NCBI GenBank assembly: GCA_018882975.1
Contig: VEQZ01000005.1
Location: forward strand, 1 to 45,975
Reading direction: 5' to 3'
Length of the DNA stretch: 45,975 nt
Source: Rhodocyclaceae bacterium
Lineage (GTDB): Bacteria; Pseudomonadota; Gammaproteobacteria; Burkholderiales; UBA3065
Part shown: piece by piece, positions 35,793-37,978 of the stretch
How the letters are laid out: the number at the start of each line of letters is the position of its first letter
How positions within the stretch are numbered: the first letter of the stretch is position 1
Notes under the pieces: generated by a model
What the model was told of the DNA's origin: nothing
The model's database searches: none
What the model saw: the letters and a program-made list of their open reading frames with translations, nothing else
Translations under genes and position numbers: made by a program

Positions 35793-36437
35793 CTAGCGCT
35801 GGCCGTCGGCGACGAAGGGGTTGTCGTCGCGTTCATCGCCAAAGGTCGACATCGGTCCGTGCCCCGGCACGAACGCGACCTCCCGCCCCAATGGCCACAA
35901 TTTCTCGCGGATCGACGCCAGCAACTGTGCGTGGTTGCCGCGCGGAAAGTCGGTGCGCCCGATCGAGCCCTGGAACAGTACGTCGCCGACCTGTGCCCAC
36001 TGCGCCGCGCGATTGAAGAAGATCACATGCCCGGGCGTGTGACCGGGCGTGTGGTAGACCTCGAACACCAGATCGCCGAGCGTCACCGTGTCGCCGTCGT
36101 CGAGCCAGCGGTCGGGCACGAAGGCGCGCGGGCTGCCAAAACCGAACCACTGCACCTGCTGCGCCATGGCGTCGATCCAGAACGCGTCCTCGCGCTGCGG
36201 GCCGACGATCGGCACGCCGGTCCGCTCGCGCAGTTCGAGCGAGCCGCCGCAGTGGTCGAGATGGCCGTGGGTCAGCCAGACCGCTTCCAGTTTGAGCCCG
36301 CGTTGCCGCACCTCGGCGAGCAGGCGATCGACTTCTCCGCCCGGGTCGATGAAGGCGGCGGCGCATGTCTCGCTGCACCAGACCAGCGTGGTGTTCTGCG
36401 CAAAGGGGGTGACCGGGATGACTGCGAACTCGAGCAT
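35793..36437 (-). CDS. MBL-fold metallo-hydrolase (glyoxalase II-like)
   Basis: This 214-residue protein has the metallo-beta-lactamase signature THGHLDHCGG (H57, H59, D61, H62), the further ligands in YHTPGHTPGHVIF and VGDVLFQGSIGRTDFPRG, and VPGHGP near the end. The SIGRTDFPRG string groups it with YcbL-like small glyoxalase II/hydrolase proteins. Substrate is not determined by sequence. It is convergent with the ferredoxin and divergent from amtB. Confidence 0.9.
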   Translation of the reverse strand: MLEFAVIPVTPFAQNTTLVWCSETCAAAFIDPGGEVDRLLAEVRQRGLKLEAVWLTHGHLDHCGGSLELRERTGVPIVGPQREDAFWIDAMAQQVQWFGFGSPRAFVPDRWLDDGDTVTLGDLVFEVYHTPGHTPGHVIFFNRAAQWAQVGDVLFQGSIGRTDFPRGNHAQLLASIREKLWPLGREVAFVPGHGPMSTFGDERDDNPFVADGQR

Positions 36438-36524
36438 GGCGGGATGCTATCAGCGACGGCGAGGCTGCTGTGACACGGATGCGGCCACGCCACGTCGGCA
36501 CCCGCCTGACGGTCTGGCATTAAC

Positions 36525-36570
36525 GCACCGATATGGTGCACATTCGGCACCGTGCGCACGAAGGCAGTGC
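36525..36570 (+). promoter_or_regulatory. Two NtrC-type enhancer sites upstream of amtB
   Basis: Two perfect GCAC-N7-GTGC dyads lie at 36525-36539 (GCACCGATATGGTGC) and 36556-36570 (GCACGAAGGCAGTGC). Their centres are 31 bp apart, about three helical turns, the spacing typical of paired NtrC sites. A weaker third half-match (GCACTACGGTGGTGA) is at 36639-36653. The pair lies ~115-150 bp upstream of a sigma-54 promoter, an ordinary enhancer distance. This 338-bp gap (36438-36775) contains no gene. Confidence 0.85.
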
Positions 36571-36669
36571 GTGACCTCGCCTGAATTCTGGCGCCAGCTT
36601 CGTTTTTGGGCTTCCAGGACATTGAATGCAATCGCTTTGCACTACGGTGGTGAGGCGTGTGCCCGCTTT

Positions 36670-36685
36670 TGGCGCGGTTTTTGCT
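36670..36685 (+). promoter_or_regulatory. Sigma-54 promoter of amtB
   Basis: TGGCGCG-GTTT-TTGCT matches the -24/-12 consensus (TGGCACG-N4-TTGCA), with the invariant GG (36671-36672) and GC (36683-36684) at the required 12-bp register. It lies 91 bp before the amtB ATG and downstream of two NtrC dyads, so amtB should be induced under nitrogen limitation. Confidence 0.88.
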
Positions 36686-36775
36686 GGAAGTGGCTGAAGA
36701 ACTCCCCGGACAGCTGTCCTGGGGAAACCATGCGGCCGCCAGAGCCGCGCCCCGCAACCCGCCCACACGCCCCCC

Positions 36776-37978
36776 ATGGATGCCTTCAAGACTTCTTCAG
36801 ACGTTCTCTTCATTCTGCTCGGCGCCATCATGGTGCTGGCCATGCATGCCGGCTTCGCCTTCCTCGAACTCGGCACCGTGCGCAAAAAGAACCAGGTCAA
36901 CGCCCTGGTCAAGATCCTCGTCGATTTCGCCGTCTCGACCGTCGCCTATTTCTTTGTCGGCTATGGGGTGGCCTATGGCGTGAGCTTTCTAAGTGGCGCC
37001 GGTACGCTGGCGGCCAACGGCGGCTATGACCTGGTCAAGTTTTTCTTTCTGCTCACTTTCGCGGCGGCGATCCCGGCCATCGTCTCGGGCGGTATCGCCG
37101 AGCGCGCGCGCTTCGGCCCGCAGCTCATCGCCACCGCGGTGATCGTCGGGTTGATCTACCCGTTCTTCGAAGGCATCGTCTGGAACAACAACTTCGGCCT
37201 GCAGGGGTTGGTTGAGGCGCAGTTCGGCAAACCTTTCCACGATTTTGCCGGGAGCGTGGTGGTGCATGCGGTGGGCGGCTGGATCGGGCTGGCGGCGGTG
37301 CTGCTGCTCGGCCCTCGGCGCGGCCGCTACCACCGTGATGGTGGCATGGCGGCGCACCCGCCGTCGTCGATCCCCTTTCTGGCGTTGGGGGCCTGGATCC
37401 TCTCGGTGGGCTGGTTTGGCTTCAACGTGATGAGTGCGCAGAAGCTGGATGTGGTCAACGGCCTCGTCGCACTCAACTCGCTCATGGCCATGGTGGGCGG
37501 CACCATCGCCGCGCTGGTCGCCGGTCGCAACGACCCGGGCTTCGTCCACAACGGTCCGCTGGCCGGTCTGGTGGCCGTCTGCGCCGGCTCCGACGTGATG
37601 CACCCGGTCGGCGCGTTGGCCACTGGCGCAATCGCTGGCGCGCTATTTGTCTACCTGTTCACGCTGACGCAGAACCGCTGGAAGATCGATGACGTGCTCG
37701 GCGTGTGGCCGCTGCACGGCCTGTGCGGGGCGTGGGGCGGCATCGCCGCGGGCATCTTCGGCAGCGCGGCGCTCGGCGGCCTTGGCAATGTTGCGCTGGG
37801 CGCGCAGGTGGCGGGTACGCTCGGCGGCGTGGTGGTCGCCCTGGTGGGCGGTGCGGCGGTCTATGCGCTGATCCGCGCGGTCACCCCGCTGCGCCTCGAC
37901 CCCGAAGAGGAATACGAGGGTGCCGACTTGACCATCCACCGCATCAGCAGCACGCCGGACCGCGAACCGAGCTGGTAA
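36776..37978 (+). CDS. amtB: Ammonium transporter (Amt family)
   Basis: An 11-helix ammonium channel of the inner membrane, 400 residues. The pore twin histidines are present: H164 in SVVVHAVGGW and H314 in WPLHGLCGAWGG, along with D156 of the DFAGS motif and SGGIAER after helix 3. It has no N-terminal signal peptide, and the region around GIVWNNNF departs from the MVWGGG motif of E. coli AmtB, so it belongs to a divergent Amt branch. The glnK (PII) gene that usually accompanies amtB is not adjacent. Expression is predicted to be NtrC/sigma-54 dependent. Confidence 0.94.
   Translation: MDAFKTSSDVLFILLGAIMVLAMHAGFAFLELGTVRKKNQVNALVKILVDFAVSTVAYFFVGYGVAYGVSFLSGAGTLAANGGYDLVKFFFLLTFAAAIPAIVSGGIAERARFGPQLIATAVIVGLIYPFFEGIVWNNNFGLQGLVEAQFGKPFHDFAGSVVVHAVGGWIGLAAVLLLGPRRGRYHRDGGMAAHPPSSIPFLALGAWILSVGWFGFNVMSAQKLDVVNGLVALNSLMAMVGGTIAALVAGRNDPGFVHNGPLAGLVAVCAGSDVMHPVGALATGAIAGALFVYLFTLTQNRWKIDDVLGVWPLHGLCGAWGGIAAGIFGSAALGGLGNVALGAQVAGTLGGVVVALVGGAAVYALIRAVTPLRLDPEEEYEGADLTIHRISSTPDREPSW

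Follow-up and report, generated by a model that had tools for sequence, protein, structure and literature searches.

The amt gene of the window, by which is meant the whole stretch of 45,975 nucleotides that was analysed (Rhodocyclaceae bacterium, contig VEQZ01000005.1), encodes an ammonium transporter that stands alone, and it is very probably driven by an NtrC-activated, sigma-54-dependent promoter, which would place it under Ntr control together with the glnK-amtB genes of the same genome. Control by NtrC and sigma-54 had been proposed in a preliminary description of this DNA. As judged from the sequences, it is strongly supported by the recurrence of the same sites upstream of homologous genes and by the presence of rpoN and ntrC in the genome. 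The whole arrangement is ordinary nitrogen-starvation control of a second ammonium transporter. Its parts are listed in Table 1.

Table 1. Features of the amt control region and its flanks (positions of the window)
Feature	Position	Strand	Remarks
Open reading frame	35793-36437	-	metallo-beta-lactamase-fold, named by sight
Intergenic region	36438-36775		338 bp, between divergent genes
NtrC-type dyad 1, GCACCGATATGGTGC	36525-36539	.	perfect GCAC-N7-GTGC, centre ~-164 from predicted start
NtrC-type dyad 2, GCACGAAGGCAGTGC	36556-36570	.	perfect GCAC-N7-GTGC, centre ~-133
Possible third, weaker NtrC site, GCACTACGGTGGTGA	36639-36653	.	one mismatch, centre ~-50
Sigma-54 -24/-12 promoter element, TGGCGCGGTTTTTGCT	36670-36685	+	TGGCGCG-GTTT-TTGCT
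Predicted transcription start	~36696		12 bases counted on from the GC of the -12 element
Palindrome, GGACAGCTGTCC	36708-36719		perfect, 12 bases, in predicted amt leader
amt, ammonium transporter	36776-37978	+	400 aa, Pfam PF00909, E 2.5e-88

The two perfect dyads had been reported with a spacing of 31 bp, and their coordinates, sequences and spacing were right; measured from start to start the distance is 31 bp, and the four-base arms are perfect in both. We take these dyads to fit the NtrC consensus. The promoter that had been read as TGGCGCG-N4-TTGCT was also found, with one mismatch to TGGCACG-N4-TTGCW and with the 10 bases from GG to GC that characterize sigma-54 promoters. The dyads begin 145 and 114 bp before this element, at the distance of an enhancer. 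From the predicted start, arithmetic gives the amt transcript a leader of about 80 bases. In the upstream alignment, none of the other four genus members was seen to have the palindrome that lies in this predicted leader. No Shine-Dalgarno-like four-mer was found on reading the sequence directly before the amt start (36760-36775); one is present at this place in 83 of 110 homologue loci.

A match to the window Amt at E 1e-60 or better was present in 158 of the 300 genomes searched across the order. Of the 110 homologue loci, five belong to the genus and count the window's own among them, a further 25 came from the order-wide search, and 80 were taken from named genome contigs. They are the top-scoring matches and no random sample, and there may be overlap between the two sources. 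After removal of three loci with fewer than 300 bases upstream (L034, L077 and L125) and of one near-duplicate, 106 upstream regions remained, in which sites were scored within 300 bp upstream and compared with 200 shuffles and with a control stretch from -500 to -200. A perfect dyad was present in 63 of the 106 regions (shuffles: mean 0.96, maximum 4; control stretch, 6) and a sigma-54 site with two mismatches or fewer in 71 (mean 4.7, maximum 11; control, 3). In 42 regions the two were combined, the perfect dyad preceding the sigma-54 site by 50-180 bp (mean 0.01, maximum 1; control, 0). Pairs of dyads 28-34 bp apart, each with at most one mismatch, occurred in 33 (mean 0.1, maximum 2; control, 1), most commonly with spacings of 31 and 30 bp, and were joined by a sigma-54 site in 23 (mean 0.005, maximum 1; control, 0). 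These homologues are related, and the figures therefore count sequences, not independent events. A perfect dyad was not found in 43 of the 106 regions; 35 had no sigma-54 site with up to two mismatches, and 14 had none with up to three.

Within the genus, the sigma-54 site (at most two mismatches) is present in all five members and a perfect dyad in four, the fifth (L019) having one-mismatch dyads only, and the upstream regions align poorly overall (mean column identity 55%). The window dyads lie some 35 bp farther from the promoter than those of most homologues (145 and 114 bp, compared with clusters at about 69-80 and 98-111 bp). In three of the five genus members, namely the window, L017 and L019, the -24 element is preceded at 30-31 bp by a dyad with one mismatch, which in the window may be a third, weak NtrC site lying between enhancer and promoter. 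A different placement was observed in seven of the 106 regions (L074, L103, L107, L130, L131, L099 and L117), where, about 50 bp ahead of the amt start, the sigma-54 element shares bases with a perfect NtrC-type dyad. Such an overlap would allow NtrC to repress at the promoter.

The encoded protein contains a full-length ammonium transporter domain, matching positions 2-395 of 399 of the Pfam Ammonium_transp profile at 295.6 bits (cut-off 23.2). Its score against the NCBIfam amt subfamily model TIGR00836 is 301 bits, below the curated cut-off of 343.3, and the best sequence match among solved structures is the ammonium transporter 8qj3 (E 9.7e-56). All of 15 aligned homologues share D156, H164, S220 and H314. 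Matched by eye, these may correspond to D160, H168, S219 and H318 of E. coli, residues of the twin-His pore and the vestibule.

No PII gene lies beside this amt: none was seen next to it among the open reading frames, and none was found on the contig in a genome-wide PII search. The other amtB of the genome is directly adjoined by one. In tblastn searches with GlnB, a PII gene was found in 0 of the 110 homologue loci, the window's own included; 91 of these loci had at least 1400 bases on both sides and the other 19 less. The same search found PII at five of six distinct glnK-type amtB places of the genus, the one miss (L025) being a partial match near a contig end. Since no PII gene was found in any of the 110 loci, standing without glnK is usual for this Amt lineage in the loci examined.

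The preliminary description had called glnK absent, which holds locally and fails for the genome as a whole, where there are three PII-family genes, one of them paired with another amtB; the assembly is incomplete, and further copies are possible. Absence of PII from the genome is thus rejected. A genome search for glnK, glnB and other amt genes had been asked for, and it gave a glnB-like gene on contig C49, a glnK-like one on C16 and, on C101, a weaker match that comes after an ORF resembling an RND pump (named by sight). The glnK-like gene is directly upstream of the other amtB, in the order porin-like gene (named by sight), glnK, amtB, and this operon has a dyad and a sigma-54 element of its own. 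The third PII-family gene is divergent (L003 1468-1791, minus strand, after an RND metal-pump-like ORF). It had further been suggested that PII control, if not lacking, has to come from elsewhere. Because the genome carries three PII-family genes, an origin elsewhere is the right branch for the transcriptional signal. The missing neighbouring glnK does not imply a missing PII system. On reading their sequences, both GlnB and GlnK have a usual-looking T-loop with Arg47 and Tyr51.

In E. coli the T-loop of GlnK is described as fitting into the cytoplasmic vestibule of AmtB, with block as the result (PMC10433425). The promoter could be as set out above and the window Amt nevertheless not be gated by PII, so that NtrC would set its amount and nothing would plug the transporter after an ammonium shock. 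The lack of a PII gene in all the homologue loci agrees with this, as does the end of the C-terminal tail, which reads GADLTIHRISSTPDREPSW in the window Amt and GLDTVSHGETAYHV in the glnK-linked AmtB. We nevertheless consider it unlikely. The tail keeps R373, E377, E379, G382, D384 and H388, which are conserved at 99-100% in the 110 homologues and are common to the glnK-linked AmtB, as is the tail core G-x-D-x3-H; GlnB and GlnK with ordinary T-loops are available in trans; and no linkage does not show no binding. There is likewise a rather small chance that NtrC induces, and PII does not plug, an Amt lineage that is widespread in Betaproteobacteria. If so, one ammonium transporter of nitrogen-starved cells would stay at work after an ammonium shock, with the glnK-linked one shut.

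The regulators that the promoter would call for are encoded in the genome. It has one rpoN and one ntrC above the curated cut-off (693 bits, cut-off 558.6), the latter with an NtrB-like ORF, named by sight, directly upstream. Two further ORFs, one on C97 (379 bits) and one on C10 (285 bits), cover most or half of the ntrC model without reaching its cut-off, as sigma-54 activators would, and another enhancer-binding protein of the genome, alone or with NtrC, might activate a real sigma-54 promoter here. This we regard as quite improbable in view of where else the sites occur. The assembly (1,954,859 bases, 106 contigs, 91.4% complete) was searched for TGGCNCG-N5-TGC standing 75-105 bp after a perfect dyad. 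There are two such places, and none with the reversed pattern as a control; one is before the window amt and the other before the porin-like gene, glnK and amtB on C16, so that both precede amt genes. The dyads' only other place with a strict sigma-54 element is therefore a glnK-amtB operon, and the corresponding Herbaspirillum operon, nlmA-glnK-amtB, is reported to be NtrC-dependent (PMC3023670). A close pair of dyads, 23-53 bp from start to start, was found at one place in the assembly, with none for the reversed pattern. About 0.3 such pairs per genome would be expected by chance, by arithmetic from the density of dyads in the window, and this uniqueness is accordingly only suggestive. The footprint in relatives is the stronger evidence.

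In the window as a whole, perfect dyads are at the level of chance (4 observed, 3.39 expected from shuffles), and a single one is uninformative there; sigma-54-like sites with at most two mismatches are likewise no more frequent than expected (10 observed, 11.59 expected), and of these 10 the element before amt alone has as few as one mismatch. When the intergenic region was shuffled 5000 times, two perfect dyads never arose; 129 of the shuffles contained one or more, and 71 contained a sigma-54 site with no more than one mismatch. Chance assembly of the motifs in an intergenic region rich in GC is extremely improbable and is rejected: the window-wide counts of single dyads and loose sigma-54 matches, being no higher than chance, would agree with it, but the intergenic shuffles and the recurrence upstream of homologues speak against it.

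Under NtrC-activated, sigma-54-dependent control of the window amt, the course of events would follow the established Ntr system, by analogy with which NtrC would be expected to bind, to activate and to raise expression in nitrogen shortage. When nitrogen is short, PII proteins would stop restraining NtrB, which would phosphorylate NtrC. NtrC would then assemble on the two dyads and, through looping of the DNA, bring about formation of the open complex by sigma-54 RNA polymerase at the -24/-12 element, with transcription starting near 36696. With a control region of this kind also before the porin-glnK-amtB operon, GlnK and both transporters should rise together. The sites, their arrangement and their recurrence in relatives are there to be seen, as are the genes for RpoN, NtrC and the PII proteins. 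They suggest a common sensor for the second amt and the porin-glnK-amtB operon.

The unit before the window amt resembles NtrC/sigma-54 enhancer-promoter units such as glnAp2 of enteric bacteria: in both, a pair of strong NtrC dyads, spaced by about three turns of the helix, stands upstream of a -24/-12 promoter at a distance above 100 bp. The distances (here 145 and 114 bp) differ in detail. Among the matches listed, mainly from the open-access literature, there was no paper on an unlinked, NtrC-controlled second amt lineage in Betaproteobacteria, and we make no claim that such a lineage is unpublished. NtrC control of the window amt gains support by analogy, because amtB is placed in the core NtrC regulon across Proteobacteria (PMC5343134) and because the Herbaspirillum operon is reported as NtrC-dependent; in the portions of the regulon study drawn on here, unlinked amt genes are not treated apart (PMC5343134). 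In Paraburkholderia phymatum, amtB is reported to increase about 11- to 20-fold under nitrogen limitation (PMC5748707), a figure that is not counted as support here. Azoarcus olearius BH72 resembles the present genome in having several Amt genes, amtB, amtD, amtE and amtY, of which amtB is described as co-transcribed with glnK and raised under nitrogen fixation (PMC8467165). A homologue in Azoarcus sp. Aa7 is 78% identical to the window Amt. A close betaproteobacterial parallel is the nlmA-glnK-amtB operon of Herbaspirillum seropedicae, whose expression is given as about 21-fold higher under nitrogen limitation (PMC3023670) and whose order of a porin-like gene, glnK and amtB is that of the C16 operon. 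The window gene differs from it in being a second Amt, 35% identical to the glnK-linked AmtB of its own genome, and in standing without an adjoining PII gene.
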